Positions 6,678 through 34,264 of a DNA stretch of 40,115 bases are shown in pieces; position 1 is the first letter of the stretch, and the number at the start of each line of letters is the position of its first letter. Source of the stretch: Terriglobia bacterium (GTDB taxonomy: Bacteria; Acidobacteriota; Terriglobia; JAIQFV01). The stretch lies in the NCBI GenBank assembly GCA_020073085.1, contig JAIQFV010000032.1, positions 1-40,115 of the forward strand, in the 5' to 3' direction. Both the position numbers and the translations under genes were made by a program. The notes beneath the pieces are model-generated. The model saw nothing but the letters and a program-made list of their open reading frames with translations, ran no database searches and was not told the origin of the DNA.

Positions 6678-6695
6678 CGAACTCCTGCGGAGTTA

Positions 6696-6833
6696 AATTC
6701 CAAAGTCCAAATTCCAAATAAAACCCAAAGACCAAATTCCAAACAAAGCCCGACGAGGAAGTGTCTTGAGACATGAAGTTTGATCATTGGGTTTTGGAAT
6801 CTATTTGGATTTTGGACTTTGGCATTTGGAATT
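6696..6833. repeat. foldback of heptad repeats between prfA and prmC
   Basis: The left arm (about 6696-6750) consists of units such as AATTCCA, AAGTCCA and AATTCCA, mostly every seven bases. The right arm (about 6789-6833) is its rough inverse complement (TTTGGAT, TTTGGAC, TTTGGCA, TTTGGAA). The transcript of prfA-prmC could fold it into a long imperfect hairpin. It occupies nearly the whole gap between the two genes. Confidence 0.75.
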
Positions 6834-6838
6834 TGCTC

Positions 6839-12429: not shown

Positions 12430-12614
12430 GTAGTAACGACTTCAGTCGTTCCGTGAGTCAGTAGTAACGACTTCAGTCGTTCCGTGAATCATGTAGTAAC
12501 GACTTCAGTCGTTCCGTGAATCATGTAGTAACGACTTCAGTCGTTCCGTGAATCATGTAGTAACGACTGAAGCCGCTCTTTCATTCGGGGGGTAACGACT
12601 GAAGTCGTTACTAC
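12430..12614. repeat. REP-like palindromic tandem array
   Basis: The near-palindrome AACGACTTCAGTCGTT occurs four times in direct tandem, in units of 31-32 bp starting at 12430, 12461, 12493 and 12525, separated by CCGTGARTCAT-type spacer. A degenerate copy begins at 12557 and an inverted copy ends the array at 12594-12614, overlapping the der stop codon. The whole array can fold into a series of hairpins in the der transcript. Confidence 0.9.
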
Positions 12615-13990
12615 TTCTTCATCCGCTGCTTGATGCGGATCGGCGTTCCGAGAAAGCCAAAATGTTCGCGGAACCGGTTGATGAGAAATCGTTCGAACCC
12701 AAAGTGGAATTTGCTCGGCCGGTTCGTGAACAGCACAAAGGTCGGAGGTGCGACACTGGTTTGAGTGGCGTAAAGGATCTTCGACCGGGAGGAGACCGGA
12801 ACGGTCGCCCGGCTGAAGTCGATGGAATTCACAAAGCGGTTCAACTCTGCCGTCGGAATCCGTCGCTCGCGTTCTCCGGCCATACCTTTCACGCAGTTCA
12901 GAAGGTTCGTGACGCGCTGTCCGGTGAGTGCGGAGATAAAAAGGATGGGCGCATAGTCCAGGTACTTCGCCCTCTGTCGCACCTTTTCCTCGAACTGCTG
13001 GGTCGAATCGGCAGTCTTCTTGACCAGGTCCCATTTGTTCACCGCCAGGATGACGGATTTTCCGGCCTCGTGAGCGTAGCCCGCGATGGTGGCGTCGAGT
13101 GCCGTGACGCCTTCCACTGCGTCAATGAGTAAGACCGCGACGTCGGCCTGTTCCAAATGCTTGCGTGCCAGCACGACGCTCAGTCTCTCCGCGAGGAGTT
13201 TGGTCTTCCCTTTCCGCCGAATACCGGCCGTGTCGATGATTCGAAAGCGGGTGCCCTCACGTTCGATGACCGCATCGACGCTGTCCCGGGTCGTGCCGGC
13301 AATCGGCGTCACAATGGATCGCTCCTTGCCACAGAGCGTGTTCAATAGGGTGGACTTGCCCACATTGGGACGCCCGATGATGGCGACCCGAATTTCGCCG
13401 GGACGCCGTCGAAGAAGCCTTCCTTCATTGATCCCTTCCTCCTCTTCTCCGGAAGATCCATCCTGAACAGGTCGAATACTTGATTTTCCAAACTCGGCGC
13501 GCGCAAAGATGACATCGAGCATCTCCGCAATATTCAGGTTGTGCTCCGCGGAAACAAAGAAGACGGGCTCAACCCCCAACCGGTGGAATTCGCCCGATTC
13601 CCCCACCTGTCGAGGCGAATCGACCTTGTTAACGACGAGCGCCAGCGGTCTTCCAGTGCGGCGCAGAAGGCGGGCGAGTTCCTCGTCGAGCGGGACCAGA
13701 CCATCGCGAGAATTGACTACCAGCAGGATCTGCGTGGCATCTCGGATGGCGATTTGAGCCTGCTTCAGGATGCTCTGGGCGATGAGATCTTCATCACGCG
13801 GGATGATTCCCCCGGTATCCACCACTTCGGCACGGATGCCCAGCCACTCGCACTCCCCATAGATTCGATCGCGCGTGATCCCCGGTTCGTCAGTGACGAT
13901 GGAACGCCGCTGGCCGACCAGACGGTTGAACAGCGTGGATTTCCCGACATTCGGCCGACCGACAATCACGATGAGTGGGAGTTTGGGCAT
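12611..13990 (-). CDS. der: ribosome-assembly GTPase Der (EngA)
   Basis: This encodes 459 residues from the ATG at 13990 (MPKLPLIVIV). Two tandem GTPase domains are seen: the first P-loop GRPNVGKST at 11-19 with DTGG and NKVD (121-124), and the second P-loop GRPNVGKST at 206-214 with DTAG and NKWD. An acidic linker (about 178-190) joins them, and a C-terminal KH-like domain ends in a basic tail. Der is essential for 50S subunit maturation. Two oddities flank it. Directly upstream of the ATG is a heptad-repeat tract with no Shine-Dalgarno, and the stop codon lies inside an inverted REP-like copy. The protein itself looks intact. Confidence 0.96.
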   Translation of the reverse strand: MPKLPLIVIVGRPNVGKSTLFNRLVGQRRSIVTDEPGITRDRIYGECEWLGIRAEVVDTGGIIPRDEDLIAQSILKQAQIAIRDATQILLVVNSRDGLVPLDEELARLLRRTGRPLALVVNKVDSPRQVGESGEFHRLGVEPVFFVSAEHNLNIAEMLDVIFARAEFGKSSIRPVQDGSSGEEEEGINEGRLLRRRPGEIRVAIIGRPNVGKSTLLNTLCGKERSIVTPIAGTTRDSVDAVIEREGTRFRIIDTAGIRRKGKTKLLAERLSVVLARKHLEQADVAVLLIDAVEGVTALDATIAGYAHEAGKSVILAVNKWDLVKKTADSTQQFEEKVRQRAKYLDYAPILFISALTGQRVTNLLNCVKGMAGERERRIPTAELNRFVNSIDFSRATVPVSSRSKILYATQTSVAPPTFVLFTNRPSKFHFGFERFLINRFREHFGFLGTPIRIKQRMKK

Positions 13991-13996
13991 ATGAAT

Positions 13997-14311
13997 CAAG
14001 TCCAAAGTTCAAAGTCCAAAGTTCAAAGTTCAAAGTTCAAAGTCCAAGGTCCAAGGTCCAAGGTTCAAAGTCCAAAGTCCAAAGTCCAAAGTTCAAAGTC
14101 CAAAGTCCAAAGTTCCAAGGTCCAAGTCCTGCACAGCCCATATTTCAGAATCTTTGCTTAAACTCTCTGGTTTGCCACTTCTGACTTCCGACTTCTGACT
14201 TCTGACTTCCGACCTCTGGTCTCCGGCCTGGCTTCCGGCTTCTGACTTCTGCTTCCTCCCACTGGCAACTGGGAACTGGCAACTGAGAACTGACAACTGA
14301 GAACTGACAAC
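13997..14311. repeat. composite heptad-repeat element, copy A
   Basis: Three modules of 7-bp periodic sequence are seen: AAAGTCC/AAAGTTC units (13997-14130), a 43-bp non-repetitive core (14133-14175), TTCTGAC/TTCCGAC units (about 14178-14255), and AACTGAC/AACTGAG units (about 14262-14311). The same modular order and the identical core recur in inverse orientation near 19.5-19.8 kb. The element fills most of the divergent der/dinG intergenic region, and I see no gene in it. Confidence 0.9.
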
Positions 14312-14391
14312 TTCTTTTCCCTAACAGCTTTGAACTTATTCGCCGCCGCCGGATCTGTCAAGGTGAGCTTTTGTGCCTGAAGGAGGACCGA

Positions 14392-14449: not shown

Positions 14450-16474
14450 ATGATCGATCAACTCTCCCACTTTGGACCTCGCGGAAAGATCTCCACGCTC
14501 CATCCCCAATTTGAGTTCCGCCCCGGACAGCTTCAGATGGCAGAGGCCGTTTCGAGCGCGATGGCGCACCAACGCCATCTGATCGTCGAAGCCGGAACGG
14601 GAACGGGAAAGACCCTGGCGTATCTCGTTCCCGCGTTTCAAAGTGGGAAACGGGTGGTCGTTTCCACCGCCACCAAGAACCTCCAGGAACAGCTCTTCTT
14701 CAAGGATATTCCCTTTGTGGAGAAACTCTTTCCGGGGAAGTTCAAGGCCTGTCTCGTCAAAGGGCGGTCGAACTACCTTTGCCTCAAGAAATTCACCGAG
14801 GCACAATCCCTGCCCGTATTCGAGTCCATGGAAGAAGTGAAGGCCTTCCACGGCCTGGAGACGTGGGCGAAGATCACTGAGACGGGAGACCGCGCGGAAC
14901 TCGAGGATCTCCCGGAGGATTCCCCGTTGTGGCCCCGCCTGGATGCCCGTGCCGAGGATTGTCTCGGGCAAAAATGCTCCGATTACGAGCGGTGTTTCGT
15001 CGTGCGCATGCGGGAGCGGGCACGGGAGTCGGATCTCATCATTGCCAATCACCACCTCGTCTTCGCGGACCTGGCGGTCCGGGAGAGTGACTTTGGCGCG
15101 GTCCTCCCGGAGTATGAGGTCCTCGTCCTGGATGAAGCGCACGCCGTCGAAAACATCGCCACCCAGTACTTCGGAATCCAGATTTCCAACTACCGTCTCG
15201 ATGAACTGATCCGCGACGCGAGGGCCGCCTTGAAGAAACATGAGATTCGGAGCGAGGAAATCAACGAGGCCCTCAACCAGTTGGCGGTTCGGGGCACGGG
15301 GTTTTTTGGAGTGTTGGCACGGCCTGAAGGTCGCTACGAATTGCTATCGATACTTCCGCGACTTGAACAATGGGAAGAGAGTTTCCAGTCGTTGTCATCT
15401 TCTCTGCGGGGCCTTGAGACCCGTCTGGAAAAACTCCCCGAAAAACCGGAGGTCTTCTTCGGGCTGGTCCGCCGTTGCCGGATGATATCGGCCGACCTGG
15501 AGTTCCTGGTCCAGCACGATTCCCGCGACTATGTATACTGGCTGGAGTGCCGCGGGAGCGGCCGCCGTCGGCCGCATCCCGGCCAGGACCGCCCGGCCCG
15601 TTTCGGCATCTTTCTTCAAGCGTCCCCGATTCACGTCGCCGGCCTGCTAAAGGAGAAATTGTTCGACCGCGTCGACACTGCCATTTTGACTTCGGCGACG
15701 CTCTCGGTGGATGGGCGATTCGATTTTATTCGATCCCGTCTGGGACTGGATGAGAGCGGGGATGCGGCTCGAATCCGGGAGGTGATGTGCGCGTCCCATT
15801 TTGATCACGAGCAACAGGCCATTCTCTTTGTTCCCACCGACCTGCCGGAGGCCGGATCCGTTCACTATACCTCGCGCTCCGTCGAATTGATCGCCCACCT
15901 TCTCGAACTGACTCAGGGTCACGCCTTCATCCTGTTTACCTCCCTCCGTCAAATGGAGAAGTCCTTCCGCGAGTTGAAGAAACAGGTGGATTATCCTGTG
16001 TTTCTCCAGGGAGAGGCTGGCAGGACGGCTTTGCTGAACAAGTTCCGAAGGACAAAGCATGCCGTCCTTTGTGCCACGGCAAGCTTTTGGCACGGCGTGG
16101 ACGTGGTAGGAGAGCAATTAAGCTGTGTTATAATAGACAAGCTTCCGTTCGCCGTGCCGGACGATCCCATCGTCAAGGCCCGAACTGAAGCCTTGGAAGC
16201 TGCAGGGCACAGTGGTTTTCTGGAGTACCAGGTTCCCGAAGCCATCATCCAGCTCAAGCAGGGCTTGGGACGGCTCATCCGTTCGACTCGTGATTATGGA
16301 CTCCTGGCCGTGCTGGATGACCGTGTCATCCGCAAGAACTATGGCCGTTTGTTCCTTTCCAGTCTGCCGAACTACCATGTGACACGCGACCTTGGGGAAG
16401 TCCGCCAGTTCCTGGAGAGGCATCGCAGTGCCCGCCGCGGAACCCGTCCACCGGACGGGCCCGGATCGGTTTGA
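14450..16474 (+). CDS. dinG: DinG/XPD-like Fe-S ATP-dependent DNA helicase
   Basis: This encodes 674 residues. Walker A is EAGTGTGKT (47-55) and the DEAH box is at 228-231. Between them are four cysteines (C111, C171, C176, C182) spaced as in the iron-sulfur domain of XPD/DinG helicases, which move 5' to 3' and resolve R-loops, D-loops or G-quadruplexes. Helicase domain 2 shows TSATLSVDG, FTSLRQMEKSF, ATASFWHGVD and QGLGRLIRSTRDYG (motif VI). There is no N-terminal exonuclease domain, so it resembles E. coli DinG/YoaA rather than the exonuclease-fused type. The insert near residues 365-385 is Arg-rich. The start is supported by the nearby promoter, although GGAAGG lies unusually close to the ATG. 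Confidence 0.93.
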   Translation: MIDQLSHFGPRGKISTLHPQFEFRPGQLQMAEAVSSAMAHQRHLIVEAGTGTGKTLAYLVPAFQSGKRVVVSTATKNLQEQLFFKDIPFVEKLFPGKFKACLVKGRSNYLCLKKFTEAQSLPVFESMEEVKAFHGLETWAKITETGDRAELEDLPEDSPLWPRLDARAEDCLGQKCSDYERCFVVRMRERARESDLIIANHHLVFADLAVRESDFGAVLPEYEVLVLDEAHAVENIATQYFGIQISNYRLDELIRDARAALKKHEIRSEEINEALNQLAVRGTGFFGVLARPEGRYELLSILPRLEQWEESFQSLSSSLRGLETRLEKLPEKPEVFFGLVRRCRMISADLEFLVQHDSRDYVYWLECRGSGRRRPHPGQDRPARFGIFLQASPIHVAGLLKEKLFDRVDTAILTSATLSVDGRFDFIRSRLGLDESGDAARIREVMCASHFDHEQQAILFVPTDLPEAGSVHYTSRSVELIAHLLELTQGHAFILFTSLRQMEKSFRELKKQVDYPVFLQGEAGRTALLNKFRRTKHAVLCATASFWHGVDVVGEQLSCVIIDKLPFAVPDDPIVKARTEALEAAGHSGFLEYQVPEAIIQLKQGLGRLIRSTRDYGLLAVLDDRVIRKNYGRLFLSSLPNYHVTRDLGEVRQFLERHRSARRGTRPPDGPGSV

Positions 16475-16486
16475 GAAAAGAGGCGG

Positions 16487-16900
16487 GTGAGGCCGTGGAG
16501 TGCGGCTCAAGAGGTGGTAGACCCGGACGCAACGTTGAGTCCGAATGAATCTATGGGTAATTCGCAAAAGAGTCTGGCGGTCGCTGAAGATAGCTCGGGC
16601 TATCCTGATTGTCGACGGGAGTTCTACGACGCCTTCGAGCGGGTCATGGAACTGGGGACGAGGCCCGAGACCCATATCCGTATCGTCACCCCGGTGATTG
16701 GCTTGAGGAAATGGGAGATTGTGCGACGGGGCATCGAGTTGGAAGCCCCATTGCATCTGACATGGTCATGTTACAAGAACAGCGTGGAGGCGTGCGGGGA
16801 GTGCGACAGTTGCGCCTTGCGGCTGCGGGGATTTCAGCAGGCGGGGGTGGAGGATCCCATCCCCTACATACGGAGGCCAGCCTTCGCCGCGCGAGCCTGA
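16487..16900 (+). pseudogene. queC: 5'-truncated queC (7-cyano-7-deazaguanine synthase) remnant
   Basis: From residue 37 ([15 protein letters not shown]) the ORF matches the C-terminal half of QueC, including [21 protein letters not shown] and the zinc site [19 protein letters not shown] (C95, C103, C106, C109), ending with the family terminus VEDPIPY. The N-terminal half, with the PP-loop SGGxDS that binds ATP, is absent, and the 36 residues before the match look unrelated. Only 12 bp separate the ORF from the helicase stop, so the missing part cannot lie just upstream. Without the PP-loop it cannot catalyse the ATP-dependent nitrile formation of queuosine synthesis. It is most likely a pseudogene, unless the 5' half is encoded elsewhere. 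No other queuosine gene is in the window. Confidence 0.8.
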
Positions 16901-17100
16901 TCCCGCTTCACCGCATGACCCGACGCTTGGTGTGGCGTAAGAGGATCCTGGATCAATCGGTTTTGATGATAGGGGGTTTCATTTTAATTCTTTTGAAATA
17001 GAACAAAACGCTGCAACGTTGTACGATTTTATAAAATTTTGCGTCAGGTCGATGATGATTCAGCTCCCAGTGGAGAATGCATCGGCCCGTGGAGGAATTC

Positions 17101-18204
17101 ATGTTGAGAAGAATATTTTTAGGGTTCATGTTTATTGCCATCATGGCTGTTTTATTGTCCGGCCCTTCCCGAGTGGCCTGGGCGCAAACGGGGGGAATTG
17201 AAGGGGACATCAAGGGGGCCGACGGTCAGCCGCTCACGGCCGCCGAAGTTCGGATTGATCGCATCGATATCAAACAGCATTTTCAAACCAAGACCGACAA
17301 AAAAGGCCACTACTTCCATGCCGGATTGCCCAGCGGCACGTACAACATCTCGGTTTGGCAGGCCGACAAGCAAGTCTGGCTCGATCAAAATGTCCGGATC
17401 GGGGTGGGCGATCCCACTCGACACGATGTGGATATCAAGGCCGCCCAGGAAGCCGCGGTCAAGGCCATGCCTAAAGAGGAAAAGGAGCGCCTCGAGAAAG
17501 TAGAAAAAGAGAAGAAAAAGATCGGGGACATGAAGAAGCATTACGATGACGGCAACACGCTCTATGCCAGTAAGCAATTCGAGCAGGCCCTGTCCGAATT
17601 CAAAACCGCTTCGGAAATGGATCCATCCCAATATGTCATTTTCGCCCGGATCGCTGAAACGGAAGAACAACTCAAGCAATACGACGAGGCGATTGCGAGT
17701 TACCAGAAGGCCATCACGACCCTCGAACCCCAGGCCGAGCAGAAGGCAGACCTGAAGCAGGTCCTGGCCGACTATTACAACAACTTCGGCGGCATGCTGG
17801 CCAAAGGGGGGAAGCCCAAGGATGCCATGGAGTCCTACAAGAAGGCAGTGGACCTGTTTCCGGCTAAAGCGGGAATGTATTACTACAATCTGGGAGTGGT
17901 CTTGACGAACTCGCGCGCGCCATTGGAGGACCGGCTGGTGGCCTTTAAGAAAGCGATCGAGGCGGACCCCAACAATGCCAACGCCTACTTCCTTTATGGC
18001 CAGACACTATCAGAGAAGATGACTTTCACCGCGGATGGAAAGATCACCGCCCCTCCTGAGATGTTCCAGGCGTTGAACAAATACCTTGAACTGGACCCTC
18101 AAGGAAAGTATGCGCAGGGGGCCAAGGACTTGATCGCGGCGGCAGGGCAGACCGTGCAGACTTCGTATGGAACCAGGAAGGAACCGAAAAAACCAAAGAA
18201 ATAG
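17101..18204 (+). CDS. periplasmic TPR protein with carboxypeptidase-regulatory domain
   Basis: This encodes 367 residues from the ATG at 17101, preceded by GGAGGAATTC; the protein opens with a signal peptide cleaved near AWAQ. Residues about 30-105 form a carboxypeptidase-regulatory-like Ig fold (GGIEGDIKGADGQPL, KGHYFHAGLPSGTYNISVW). A Lys/Glu-rich helix (KEEKERLEKVEKEKKK) leads to at least three TPR units (YASKQFEQALSEFKTASEMD, QYDEAIASYQKAI, KPKDAMESYKKAVDLFP). The same domain pair occurs in the gene at 31.7 kb. It is probably an interaction scaffold in the envelope; the partner is unknown. It lies in tandem with another TPR gene. Confidence 0.85.
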   Translation: MLRRIFLGFMFIAIMAVLLSGPSRVAWAQTGGIEGDIKGADGQPLTAAEVRIDRIDIKQHFQTKTDKKGHYFHAGLPSGTYNISVWQADKQVWLDQNVRIGVGDPTRHDVDIKAAQEAAVKAMPKEEKERLEKVEKEKKKIGDMKKHYDDGNTLYASKQFEQALSEFKTASEMDPSQYVIFARIAETEEQLKQYDEAIASYQKAITTLEPQAEQKADLKQVLADYYNNFGGMLAKGGKPKDAMESYKKAVDLFPAKAGMYYYNLGVVLTNSRAPLEDRLVAFKKAIEADPNNANAYFLYGQTLSEKMTFTADGKITAPPEMFQALNKYLELDPQGKYAQGAKDLIAAAGQTVQTSYGTRKEPKKPKK

Positions 18205-18440
18205 TCCCCTTTTCGGGCGGGACCACGATGTCGAGGATTTACCAATCGCGCAGTCGCGGCGGCAGAAGGCCGGCTCTTTCGCGTACACCACAAGGTCGAA
18301 CGGGACCGCGTGTTCAGGTTGAAATGAGAATTCAATTCAAAGGATGGATCTTGAACTGAACTTGTTTGGTTTGAGATCCATTCTCCTTCTCTGGGGTGTA
18401 TCCCCCGCGAGCCCCGGGAAATTCAAGTTTGGGTGACCCT

Positions 18441-19124
18441 ATGCAGCCTCCCTTGCAGATTCGCATGCCATTTTTCATCTTGACGATTGCCATGGCGGTG
18501 GTGATCGGCTTCCTCGCCGGCTACATCTATACCAACCAGGTAAACTGGAACAACCAGCGAACTCCAGGGGGCCCCCCAAACCAAGGACCTCCGGCGACTG
18601 GCGCGATGCCAGCTCCATCACCTGACGCTGCCTCGGGCCAATTGCCCGAGGGACATCCCCCCATCAATCCCGATCCCACCATTGCCGCGATGAAGGCAGA
18701 CGCCGAAAAGAATCCGACGAGCCTCGAAAAGACTGCTCAGTTGGCCAACTTCCTTTACGACAACAAGCGCTTTAAGGACGCCATCGAATGGTATGAGAAG
18801 GCGCTGAAACTTGACCCGAAGAATCCGGACGTTGAGACCGATCTGGGCACGGCCTACTATTACGTCGGTGATTTCAACTCCGCTTTGAGCCACTTCGACA
18901 GCTCTTTGCGCATCGATCCACGCCATATTCAAACAATCCACAATAAGTTCATCGTCCTCCTGGATGGCAAGAAGGACATCGCCGGAGCCCGCGCTACGCT
19001 GAAACAACTGGAAAGCATCGACCCGCAGAATCCCGCGCTGGCAAGTCTTCGCAGTATGCTTCAGGCCGCGGAGTCGGGCGGCGCACCAACCCGGCCCGGC
19101 GGCCGGATGGGCACCGTCCCCTGA
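18441..19124 (+). CDS. membrane-anchored TPR protein
   Basis: This encodes 227 residues from the ATG at 18441 (MQPPLQIRMPFFILT); an in-frame GTG 45 bp earlier lacks a ribosome site. One N-terminal membrane helix (about 9-28) is followed by a Pro/Gly-rich linker and three TPR units (KNPTSLEKTAQLANFLYDNK, FKDAIEWYEKALKLDPKNP, DFNSALSHFDSSLRIDP), ending in a Gly/Pro-rich tail. It resembles the anchored TPR proteins found beside cytochrome-maturation or secretion systems, but no such genes are adjacent. It lies 236 bp after the first TPR gene. Confidence 0.82.
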   Translation: MQPPLQIRMPFFILTIAMAVVIGFLAGYIYTNQVNWNNQRTPGGPPNQGPPATGAMPAPSPDAASGQLPEGHPPINPDPTIAAMKADAEKNPTSLEKTAQLANFLYDNKRFKDAIEWYEKALKLDPKNPDVETDLGTAYYYVGDFNSALSHFDSSLRIDPRHIQTIHNKFIVLLDGKKDIAGARATLKQLESIDPQNPALASLRSMLQAAESGGAPTRPGGRMGTVP

Positions 19125-19196
19125 GCAACCGGCCCCCTGCCTCCATGGCAGTGAAACGCCCCAATCGTCCGAACAGAAATTTTCTGATTTGCTCAT

Positions 19197-19487
19197 ATGA
19201 TCATTCGACTCCTGCTCCGGTTTCTCTATTTTCTATTTCTGATCTTTATCATTCGCGCATTTATTCGCTACCTCTTCCCAGGCTCTCCGAAGGGAAAGAC
19301 GCCGAATCCGCCGTCACCTCCCTCTCCCGGCTCCTCGTCCAAGGTCATCTCCGGACACATGGAGAAAGACCCCATCTGCGGCATGTACATCGACACACAG
19401 ACGGCGCTTCACACGGATCGGGGGGGAAAGTCGTTTTACTTTTGCTCGGAAGGGTGTCAGAAGAAATTCATCGCCTCGACCCCTTGA
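19197..19487 (+). CDS. membrane-anchored YHS-domain protein
   Basis: This encodes 96 residues. A strongly hydrophobic N-terminal helix (about 1-27) and a Pro/Ser-rich linker lead to a YHS domain (about 56-92) with cysteines C61 in DPICGMYI, C83 in FYFCSEG and C87 in GCQKKF. YHS domains bind metals and occur in copper- and heavy-metal-handling proteins, among others. The spacing from the preceding TPR gene is 72 bp, so they may share a transcript. No ribosome site is obvious. Confidence 0.82.
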   Translation: MIIRLLLRFLYFLFLIFIIRAFIRYLFPGSPKGKTPNPPSPPSPGSSSKVISGHMEKDPICGMYIDTQTALHTDRGGKSFYFCSEGCQKKFIASTP

Positions 19488-19522
19488 CCGGTGCCACCCG
19501 CAATAATTTCACGGCGGTGACG

Positions 19523-19779
19523 GCAGTTGCCAGTTCTCAGTTCTCAGCTGCCAGTTCCCGGTTGTCAGTTGTCAGTTCTCAGAGGAACGAACCGGAAGCC
19601 AGAGGCAGGAGATCCGAAGGCGGAGGTCGGAAGTTAGAAGTCGGAAGTCAGAAGTAGCAAACCAGAGAGTTTAAGCAAAGATTCTGAAATATGGGCTGTC
19701 TTGAACTTTGGACTTTGAACCTTGGACCTTGGACCTTGGACTTTGGACTTTGGACTTTGAACTTTGGACTTTGGACTCT
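19523..19779. repeat. composite heptad-repeat element, copy B (inverted)
   Basis: Reading the minus strand, the order is AAAGTCC/AAAGTTC heptads (19700-19779), the 43-bp core (19657-19699), TTCTGAC/TTCCGAC heptads (about 19600-19656) and AACTGAC/AACTGAG heptads (19523-19585). This is the same order as copy A at 14.0-14.3 kb. The cores are identical at all 43 positions; the flanking heptads differ in number and order. The rest of the 19488-19910 gap contains no gene I can see. Confidence 0.9.
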
Positions 19780-19910
19780 TGATTCCGACCAAGTCATTTA
19801 CTTCTGCCACGTAGTCTTCTAAAATCATCTCAAGAACGCACCAAGGCACCTGTCGAGACGAGAGGAGTCGACCCACGCGCCCTTTCTTTGCCCCGACTAG
19901 TGAGGTGGCT

Positions 19911-21341
19911 ATGCGAAACACCCATCGCTTGCGACAGTCTTCAATCCTGTTCCTGACTGCATGGTTTTGCCTGAGTACGGCCCTGTCCGAAGCGCGGACT
20001 AAGGTCAAACCCGGGTTCAACTTTTTCACGTCTCAGCAGGACATTGAACTGGGGCGTGAAGCCTCGCAGCAGGCCGAAAAACAGCTGGTTTTGTTAAACG
20101 ATCCCACTGCGGTCAATTACGTGACTCAGCTGGGAAAGAAACTGGCTGCCAAATCGTTGAACCCGAATTACCCGTGGACTTTCAAAGTGGTCAACGACAG
20201 CGCCATTAATGCCTTCGCGCTTCCGGGAGGGTTTATTTATGTGAACCGCGGCGCCCTGGAGGCTGCCGACAATGAAGCGCAAATCTCGGGAGTGATTGCA
20301 CACGAAATTGGACACGTGGTCGCTCGTCACGGAACGAACCAGATGTCGAAAGCCCTCTTGCCGCAACTGGGGTTGGCCGCGTTGGGTGGGCTCACTTCGG
20401 GAAAGGGGGGGTGGGCCGCCACGCTCGCCCAGTACGGCGTCCCGCTCGGGTTGAATCTTTACTTCCTGAAGAACTCCCGCGCCGCGGAAGCGCAGGCCGA
20501 TCTTCTGGGCACCCAGGAGATGACCGATGCGGGATACGATCCTCATCAATTGGCCCACTTCTTCGAGAAATTAGAGCAGGGAGGTGGCAGTGGAAAGGTC
20601 TCCGGCGCCGCGGCCTGGTTCAGTGATCATCCCTCTCCCGAGAATCGCGTCCAGAACATCGACCGGGAAATCGGAACGCTCTCGCTGGCCGGTCAACCGG
20701 TGGTGGATACGCCCGATTTTGATCATCTGAAGGCTCATCTGAAGCGTCTACCACCCGCGCCCAAGCCGAAACCCAGTCCGGCGGCGGGCTCAAAGGAAGC
20801 GGCCACCGATACAGCAGAAGGGCCCCCGGCAGTGGCTGTCCCCTCCGGAAAATTTGCGTCCTATTCCCCGCATGAGAACATGTATGTCGTCGAGTATCCC
20901 GCCGAATGGAAGGTCACTTCAGCCGATGGGTCGGGTGCCACATTTGCGCCGGAAGGCGGCATTCAGCAGACCGATCAGCAAAGTGACATCGTTTACGGGA
21001 TCCAGGTCTCCCTCTATCAGCCTGAGGGACAGACCGGCCAGGACGACTCACTCGAGGCCTTGACGAGCCAGTTCATCGCTTCAGTCGTGCAGGGAAATTC
21101 CTATCTCCAGGAAAACCGCGCCGCCCAGCAACAGAGTAAAGTGGATGGGCGGCCCATGCTGCTCTCGCGACTGGAGGGCAAACCCCCTACCCGGAACGAG
21201 ATCGAGGTGGTCTGGGCGGCCACCCAACTCTACGGGGAGCGCCAATTGTTTGTCATCCTCTGCATCGCTCCTCAAACGCGCTTCAAAGATTTTGAGGCCG
21301 CTTTCAAACACACGATCGAGAGCGCGCGATTTCAGCAGTAG
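19911..21341 (+). CDS. M48-family metalloprotease (BepA/LoiP-like)
   Basis: This encodes 476 residues from the ATG at 19911, with GAGGTGG upstream, and has an N-terminal signal peptide (cleavage near SEART). The peptidase M48 domain shows the zinc motif HEIGH (131-135) in VIAHEIGHVVARHG and the third ligand Glu193 in RAAEAQADLLG. INAFALPGGFIYVNRG is the conserved substrate-strand region, and WFSDHPSPENRV is also typical. After a Pro/Lys linker (about 275-310), residues 315-476 form a second domain (YVVEYPAEWKV) like PsbP or DUF1795 modules. M48 proteases of this layout degrade misassembled outer-membrane proteins. Location is the periplasm. Confidence 0.92.
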   Translation: MRNTHRLRQSSILFLTAWFCLSTALSEARTKVKPGFNFFTSQQDIELGREASQQAEKQLVLLNDPTAVNYVTQLGKKLAAKSLNPNYPWTFKVVNDSAINAFALPGGFIYVNRGALEAADNEAQISGVIAHEIGHVVARHGTNQMSKALLPQLGLAALGGLTSGKGGWAATLAQYGVPLGLNLYFLKNSRAAEAQADLLGTQEMTDAGYDPHQLAHFFEKLEQGGGSGKVSGAAAWFSDHPSPENRVQNIDREIGTLSLAGQPVVDTPDFDHLKAHLKRLPPAPKPKPSPAAGSKEAATDTAEGPPAVAVPSGKFASYSPHENMYVVEYPAEWKVTSADGSGATFAPEGGIQQTDQQSDIVYGIQVSLYQPEGQTGQDDSLEALTSQFIASVVQGNSYLQENRAAQQQSKVDGRPMLLSRLEGKPPTRNEIEVVWAATQLYGERQLFVILCIAPQTRFKDFEAAFKHTIESARFQQ

Positions 21342-27858: not shown

Positions 27859-28088
27859 GAGTTCCAAAGAGTAGTTCCTTCTTTCGTGGGTTGCGAAACG
27901 ACTGAACTGCACATACAGATTGAATGGCTTTCCCGGGTTGGAGGCAGTCTAACCGTTCCACAGGATCAATTGCCTCTGAGTTCCTAAAGAGTAGTTTCCT
28001 ATCTCGTGAGTCGCAAAACGACTGATCTGCACAGACAGATAGAATGGCTTTATCGGGTCGGAGGCGGTCTCACCGTTCCACAGAATCA
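27859..28088 (+). repeat. tandem ~110-bp leader repeat upstream of receptor 2
   Basis: Two direct copies (27859-27968 and 27978-28088, 120 bp apart) lie 170 bp upstream of the second Oar-like gene. Over the last 68 bases 59 match. The first 42-43 bases are also alike but with more changes (GAGTTCC, AAAGAGTAGTT). The differences are scattered substitutions plus a one-base indel, with no reading frame preserved, so the repeat is not coding. Conserved blocks are AAACGACTGA, GAATGGCTTT, GGGT and ACCGTTCCACAG. Each copy can pair TCGT with ACGA around a ten-base loop. It could be a duplicated binding region or a leader RNA. Confidence 0.8.
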
Positions 28089-33779: not shown

Positions 33780-34004
33780 GGGCGTTCTCCTCTCAGATGA
33801 CAGGGCAGTGAGGATTCCCTGCCTCCCCTCGCTGGCCGTCGAAACAACATGACCCTTCAATGCCTTGGAATCGCCCGGGGACCTCTAGAACTAAATTTCA
33901 ACCCCGCCCGGTATTGCTACTTACACCTGTTGGAGGATAAAGTTTAAGGAAAAGTTGCTTTGCCGGGCTGACTCTTGTCATTTCCACCGCAATGGGAGCC
34001 CGAA

Positions 34005-34264
34005 AATTCCAAAATCCAAATTCCAAAATCCAAACAAAACTCAAATTCCAATTGATCAAACAGAGGCAGTTGTCAGTTCTCAGTTGTCAGTGAACAGCCA
34101 TCAGCTATCAACGCGAGGAGTGAGGAGTATAGAGCCCTTGAGCCGCTCTTCACTGATGACTGAGAACTGACAACTAATTCCGACAATTGCTCTTGCATTG
34201 GTTTGCTGACGGCTGATAGCTGATGGCTCCTTACTGAGAACCGAGAACTGACAACTGAGAACTT
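34005..34264. repeat. heptad-repeat element with long inverted arms
   Basis: The element opens with AATTCCA/AATCCAA units, then GTTGTCAGTTCTCAGTTGTC heptads. It contains a perfect 14-bp inverted repeat (GCCATCAGCTATCA at 34097-34110, complement at 34214-34227), nested within outer heptad arms (about 34069-34091 and 34229-34264). It lacks the 43-bp core of the other two composite elements. It lies in the 33780-34339 gap before the deformylase gene; the remainder of that gap contains no gene. Confidence 0.82.

Follow-up and report, generated by a model that had tools for sequence, protein, structure and literature searches.

In the window, by which we mean the whole stretch of 40,115 nucleotides analysed here, two composite arrays of 7-bp repeats are found in mirror-image orientation, separated by 5.5 kb. 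Copy 1 adjoins the gene of the GTPase EngA/Der and copy 2 a gene coding for an M48 peptidase. The tandem arms were detected with TRF; the parts and the neighbouring genes are as follows:

6695-6835: further heptad-armed element with an A-type left arm, an interior of about 90 bp and an A-type right arm (AAATTCC variant)
12611-14005, reverse strand: EngA/Der GTPase gene, adjoining copy 1
13998-14129, forward strand: left arm A of copy 1, (CCAAAGT)n, about 19 degenerate heptads
14133-14175, forward strand: core of copy 1, 43 bp
14177-14249, forward strand: right arm B of copy 1, (ACTTCTG)n
14261-14312, forward strand: outer right arm C of copy 1, (ACTGACA)n
14450-19490, forward strand: segment between the copies with a DinG-type helicase, a QueC fragment, two TPR proteins and a small ORF (19145-19657)
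19524-19582, reverse strand: outer right arm C of copy 2
19603-19655, reverse strand: right arm B of copy 2
19657-19699, reverse strand: core of copy 2, 43 bp, identical to the core of copy 1
19701-19777, reverse strand: left arm A of copy 2, 11 heptads
19905-21341, forward strand: M48 peptidase gene, adjoining copy 2
34067-34263: further heptad-armed element with outward C arms, about 150 bp inside and nested inner arms of the GCTGATA type

Both composites have the layout [CCAAAGT]n - core - [ACTTCTG]n - [ACTGACA]n. The two cores are alike at 43 of 43 bases on opposite strands, confirming the exact match that had been reported in a sequence-only reading of the window; for a 20-bp piece of the core, 0.01 occurrences are expected in shuffled windows with up to three mismatches allowed. 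The A arm comprises about 19 units in copy 1 and 11 in copy 2, the B arm (TTCTGAC units) 6 and about 4, and the C arm (AACTGAC units) about 7 in each copy. The same reading had described three heptad families placed in the same order around both cores with differing copy numbers, and this description is correct. The near-identical block, however, exceeds the core: it extends over 61 bp at 98% identity and takes in the start of the B arm, so that the core is not sharply bounded on its right side. Moreover, the A arms and the B/C arms of the two copies can be aligned with each other. Consequently, the correspondence is one of whole composites and not of the core only.

Several further features were noted in the window. 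The A array of copy 1 begins some 10 bp ahead of the start codon of der (13991-14010), and its heptads may overlap the der ribosome-binding region. Just downstream of der (12430-12609) a 32-bp tandem array is situated, consisting of 4.4 copies of GTAGTAACGACTTCAGTCGTTCCGTGAATCAT, a unit which holds the internal palindrome AACGACTTCAGTCGTT. At 27859-28088 a 120-bp unit is directly repeated in 1.9 copies that are 84% alike, and an additional A array (34004-34034) is found just left of the C-armed element. No mobility gene or recombinase was detected among the genes with Pfam hits between copies 1 and 2.

The A, B, and C heptads were painted on about 60 array regions of the genome, the regions being taken from pattern searches. 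Among the arrays listed, an A+ array is followed by an adjacent B+ array in at least 25 cases and the reverse order does not occur; likewise, C- is followed by C+, i.e. in outward orientation, in at least 24 cases with a spacing of 95-195 bp, and C+ is never followed by C-. The pairs A+ then A- (at least three) and B- then B+ (at least two) were also observed. The pattern is NNNNAGT for left arms and ACTNNNN for right arms. No right arm has a left arm as its next neighbour among the listed A/B/C arrays, and the composite arrays thus obey an AGT-left/ACT-right polarity. The defined middle with expandable heptad arms, as had been proposed from the two copies in the window, is therefore real; the layout recurs about 25 times and its order is fixed.

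The length of the spacer between A and B peaks at 38-50 bp. The spacers belong to several sequence types, the commonest of which resembles TTTAAAGCCTACAATTCCCCTTTTTTCAGGTCTGAC, and the 43-bp core is an unusual type. Composites that have a spacer type in common tend to form inverted pairs 2.7-10 kb apart. Sets of partners with the same spacer are found on contig 6 (three copies), on contigs 13, 15, and 24, and on contig 32, to which the window belongs; a composite pair on contig 7 has unlike spacers. Some cores are also common to unlinked composites (C4 and C13; C24 and C5). In the intervals scanned, the Pfam-matched genes between partner composites are all ordinary and include no mobility gene. 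A composite-transposon-like segment bounded by the paired composites was ruled out on these grounds.

One of the C-/C+ elements (L102/L126) encodes a four-helix-bundle protein of the family PF05635/TIGR02436, the 23S-rRNA intervening-sequence protein (IVP). A relative of this protein has been solved (PDB 2GSC; XCC0516 of Xanthomonas campestris). Thirteen PF05635 matches were found in the genome. Nine of the best ten of these thirteen genes are situated between inverted tandem arms, whose period is 7 in eight cases and 9 in the remaining one. The arms are of the A type at L125 and L132, of the B type at L129 and of the C type at L126, and consist of other heptads at the remaining genes. Since the A, B, and C types all occur around PF05635 genes, all three composite heptads also serve as arms of IVP elements in this genome, and the left/right polarity around the PF05635 genes is that of the composites. 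The related armed elements L123-L132 carry an S23/IVP ORF, whereas the composites do not, and no intermediate between a composite and an IVP element was found. By arms, polarity and layout only, the composites would be gene-less relatives of the IVP elements.

The association was also assessed in other bacteria. Reference genomes were scanned in a protein-only search with a narrow three-protein alignment, giving a sample biased to one IVP subgroup. The scan returned 80 PF05635 loci, 78 of which had enough flanking sequence; according to their titles, the records belong to Chloroflexi, Planctomycetes, Acidobacteria, Verrucomicrobia, Beta- and Deltaproteobacteria, Bacteroidetes, Spirochaetes, Fibrobacter, Synergistetes, Firmicutes, and other groups. 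Both flanks bear lag-7 arrays at 61 of the 78 loci, compared with 1 of 50 control ORFs (other ORFs of the same loci). An inverted left/right alignment score of at least 20 was reached by 57 of 78 loci, by 2 of 50 controls, and by 14 of 390 pairs mixed between loci. At 56 of 68 loci the left and right consensus heptads are inverted at 6-7 of 7 positions. The heptads are locus-specific, with 49 distinct heptads among the 68 loci, and at 59 of these 68 the left arm contains AGT, AGG, or GGT. In a second sample, taken from the phylum of the window's own genome, 17 of 24 loci have heptad arms, and L300, which stems from another family, has A-type AAAGTTC arms.

IVP genes are also borne by plasmids. 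Ten such genes were examined, nine of them cyanobacterial (Nostoc, Calothrix, Anabaena, Trichormus, Stanieria). An inverted pair of period-7 arms flanks the gene at seven of the ten loci, and two others show a weaker or one-sided array. Two of the seven pairs use the B heptad of the window (AGTCAGA / ACTTCTG), namely L310 on plasmid C of Trichormus variabilis ATCC 29413, where the four-helix-bundle gene occupies about 60378-60743, and L312 on a plasmid of Nostoc sp. C052. On a plasmid of Anabaena sp. 90 (L309) the IVP gene with its long heptad arms is found between cas6 and cas4. At L128, L284, L287, L290, and L313 the flanks are strongly tandem-repetitive with a period different from 7 (9 bp at L128) and show inverted complementarity. 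Heptad arms around IVP genes are thus usual and not universal. IVP loci with inverted, locus-specific heptad arms (L123-L132, L160-L239, L275-L303, and L304-L313) form a broader set than the composite pair. In a literature search made mostly outside subscription papers and preprints we found no earlier general report of the heptads or of a link between them and IVP.

The RNA of an IVP element and that of a C-/C+ element are predicted to fold much more stably than shuffled sequences (z -7.4 and -7.5, respectively). In the fold of the window composite, arm A is zipped to arm B, 5 of 7 bases being paired in each heptad, and the core forms the tip; the z value of this fold is only -1.5, and a random left/right arm pair from different loci reaches at least 5 of 7 in about a quarter of the draws.

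Intervening sequences (IVSs) of 23S rRNA carrying an S23/IVP ORF are known in Coxiella burnetii and Leptospira. In the Coxiella IVS, two to three GACAGAT heptads precede the S23p ORF, their number varying by strain; the termini of this IVS form a 28-bp stem, and RNase III excises it in vitro (PMC4990558). Like these IVSs, the gene-bearing elements described here consist of a PF05635 four-helix-bundle ORF between inverted termini. Unlike them, they are situated between protein genes and have long heptad arms of many sequences; the composites, in addition, have no S23/IVP ORF and do not reside in the 23S rRNA gene. The heptad-armed class as a whole would function in the manner of the 23S rRNA IVS elements, and its gene-bearing members are related to them through their protein. 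Avd of diversity-generating retroelements is, with weak NCBIfam matches, a distant homologue of IVP proteins (PMC10053308); the likeness is limited to the resemblance of one protein.

Repeats of the STRR type are heptanucleotide repeats of cyanobacteria. The composites, being degenerate 7-bp tandem repeats between genes, are of this type. GGGAATC repeats have been described in Xanthomonas and Nostoc, with about 186 unexplained arrays in Xanthomonas campestris (PMC4692102), and TAACTGA repeats in Beggiatoaceae (PMC4679880). All of these are, like the arrays studied here, degenerate dispersed intergenic 7-bp arrays whose heptads differ by lineage. They were described as single arrays, however, whereas the arrays of this genome are paired, inverted and of fixed polarity around a middle or an IVP gene. 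The Xanthomonas/Nostoc and Beggiatoaceae arrays may have the same origin as the arms described here. Xanthomonas campestris, the source species of 2GSC, is itself one of the bearers of GGGAATC arrays, which we note as a lead to a possible link. As short gene-less intergenic units with inverted arms in tens of copies, the composites also resemble MITEs and REPINs, but their arms are tandem heptads of differing sequence and fixed terminal repeats are absent. No transposase or RAYT linked to the composites was found among the Pfam-matched genes of the scanned intervals. As the ends of the composites are repetitive, they offer no fixed ends for scoring a target-site duplication.

The history of the composites was addressed by comparison with a sister species (G001), which has about 85% DNA identity (DinG 89% identical). 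Between 9.6 and 28 kb of the window the two genomes are collinear, with no inversion. Both orthologous intergenic sites of G001 hold a composite in the same orientation as here; the occupation of both sites predates the split of the two species. Orthologous G001 sites also hold the remaining eleven composites that were tested (13 of 13 in all), and the eight IVP sites compared are occupied in both species, so that no empty site was encountered among the 13 composite and 8 IVP sites. Sites and orientation of the composites are conserved between the two genomes of the genus. The interiors of some IVP elements are strongly diverged or swapped within conserved flanks (L126/L245 and L127/L247). Turnover of the IVP elements thus takes place within occupied sites, and no movement to new sites was observed. 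One IVP element (L130/L252) is nearly identical between the sister species with flanks of about 89% identity, which suggests a recent exchange.

We considered whether the composites could be host-functional intergenic repeats, for instance sites of a nucleoid, regulatory, or RNA-binding protein, that are unrelated to IVP and whose heptads are an independently reached, slippage-prone form. The conservation of sites and orientation across the genus and the position of copy 1, which abuts the der start codon, would fit such a role, and Beggiatoaceae heptad arrays before start codons have been proposed as regulator sites (PMC4679880). On the other hand, PF05635 genes of this genome are bordered by these very three heptads, in matching polarity. 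The replacement of entire cores and third arms would be odd for a binding site, and the genes flanking the composites share no evident function. We regard a host function as unlikely, though worth serious consideration.

The content of the sites differs between the species. In this genome both copies read A-core43-B with AACTGAC as third arm, whereas both G001 copies read A-coreX-B with a core of the common spacer type and a third arm of the CACCTGAT type. With cores delimited by hand, the identities between partner cores in this genome are 100, 98, 98, 100, 100, 80, and 62%; five of the seven partner comparisons thus give 98-100%. By the same hand delimitation, orthologous cores are 38-84% and unrelated cores 49-71% identical, and the flanking DNA of the two species is about 80-88% identical. 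The partners on contig 7 (C7) share nothing, and those on contig 15 (C15) share no more than orthologues do. The comparison comprises two genomes in draft assembly. As partner cores are more alike than orthologous cores, the sites being old and their content young and common to partners, the data point to concerted evolution. Gene conversion between the inverted partners is most likely the way by which the core came to be shared, judging from this two-genome comparison.

Alternatively, both cores could have been replaced from a third donor composite or from incoming DNA (transformation). Replacement of this kind would account for the cores common to the unlinked composites C4/C13 and C24/C5 and for the IVP element L130/L252, which is more conserved between the species than its flanks. 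However, no donor of the 43-bp core is present in the 98.7%-complete assembly, and sharing between partners is mostly local. Replacement from such a source appears unlikely.

In the sequence-only reading the 43-bp core itself had been taken for the defined part of a mobile or recombining unit. An element of this kind would have inserted separately at both sites and brought or attracted the heptads, and an identical, non-repetitive core flanked by arms of variable copy number is what one might expect from it. Yet in the whole genome holding the window (5.79 Mb in 68 contigs, a draft assembly) the core occurs only twice, both times in the window, and not in the many copies expected of a mobile element. 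One genome from the same genus and one from the same family lack it, as do 395 further genomes of the phylum included in the search, where four weak partial matches (E>0.005) look like chance; an exact search of viral contigs gave no match. The core is therefore not itself a dispersed mobile element. Furthermore, both orthologous sites of the sister species hold composites with a different core, the comparison which might have revealed empty sites found all 13 tested sites occupied, and neither the interval between the copies nor the other scanned intervals contain a recombinase or transposase among their Pfam-matched genes. Of the earlier proposal, recombination acting on the layout stands and the core as the mobile part does not; separate insertion of a core-bearing element is improbable.

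By the same reading, a core restricted to these two places, together with one recent local inversion or duplication as the explanation of the two loci, would speak against the mobile unit; the restriction is borne out, but such an event, although recombination commonly yields local inverted repeats like these copies 5.5 kb apart, is very improbable, as both sites are already occupied, with the same composite orientation, in the collinear sister species. Inversion of the segment between the copies is ruled out by this collinearity, and a local inverted duplication of the core is possible solely as conversion between the copies.

On balance, we consider it somewhat more likely than not that the two composites represent partners within the PF05635 (IVS-like) class of heptad-armed elements, that both are gene-less and that they share their core by gene conversion. 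In such an element a short middle would separate a left arm (NNNNAGT)n from right arms (ACTNNNN)n, and the right arms could pair with the left one across it. Conversion between the inverted copies would have placed the 43-bp core at both sites, with the arms supplying the homology. The composites would then be non-autonomous or decayed members of the class, whose mobility is putative. By analogy with the 23S IVSs, insertion would perhaps be tolerated as transcripts of the inverted arms fold and could be cut by RNase III, and IVP may bind the arms of its own element.

To our knowledge, the heptanucleotide arrays of cyanobacteria, Xanthomonas, and Beggiatoaceae have been reported for decades with no cause given, and we know of no function of the IVP/S23 four-helix-bundle family, present in very many genomes, outside 23S rRNA. 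A wider reading, which we put forward tentatively and at somewhat less than even confidence, is that PF05635 proteins are the partners of very widespread small selfish IVS-like elements with inverted, element-specific heptad arms, that gene-less derivatives, the present composites among them, account for many unexplained heptanucleotide repeats, and that the middles are swapped or homogenised by arm-mediated recombination. The paired composites would represent a natural case of concerted evolution of inverted repeats in a bacterial chromosome in which the intervening segment is not inverted. Heptad arms framing IVP genes could explain the source of many orphan 7-base repeats. The link between heptads and IVP (61/78 versus 1/50), which extends to plasmids of strains that can be grown in culture, Trichormus variabilis ATCC 29413 among them, makes both the origin of the heptad arrays and the function of IVP testable.
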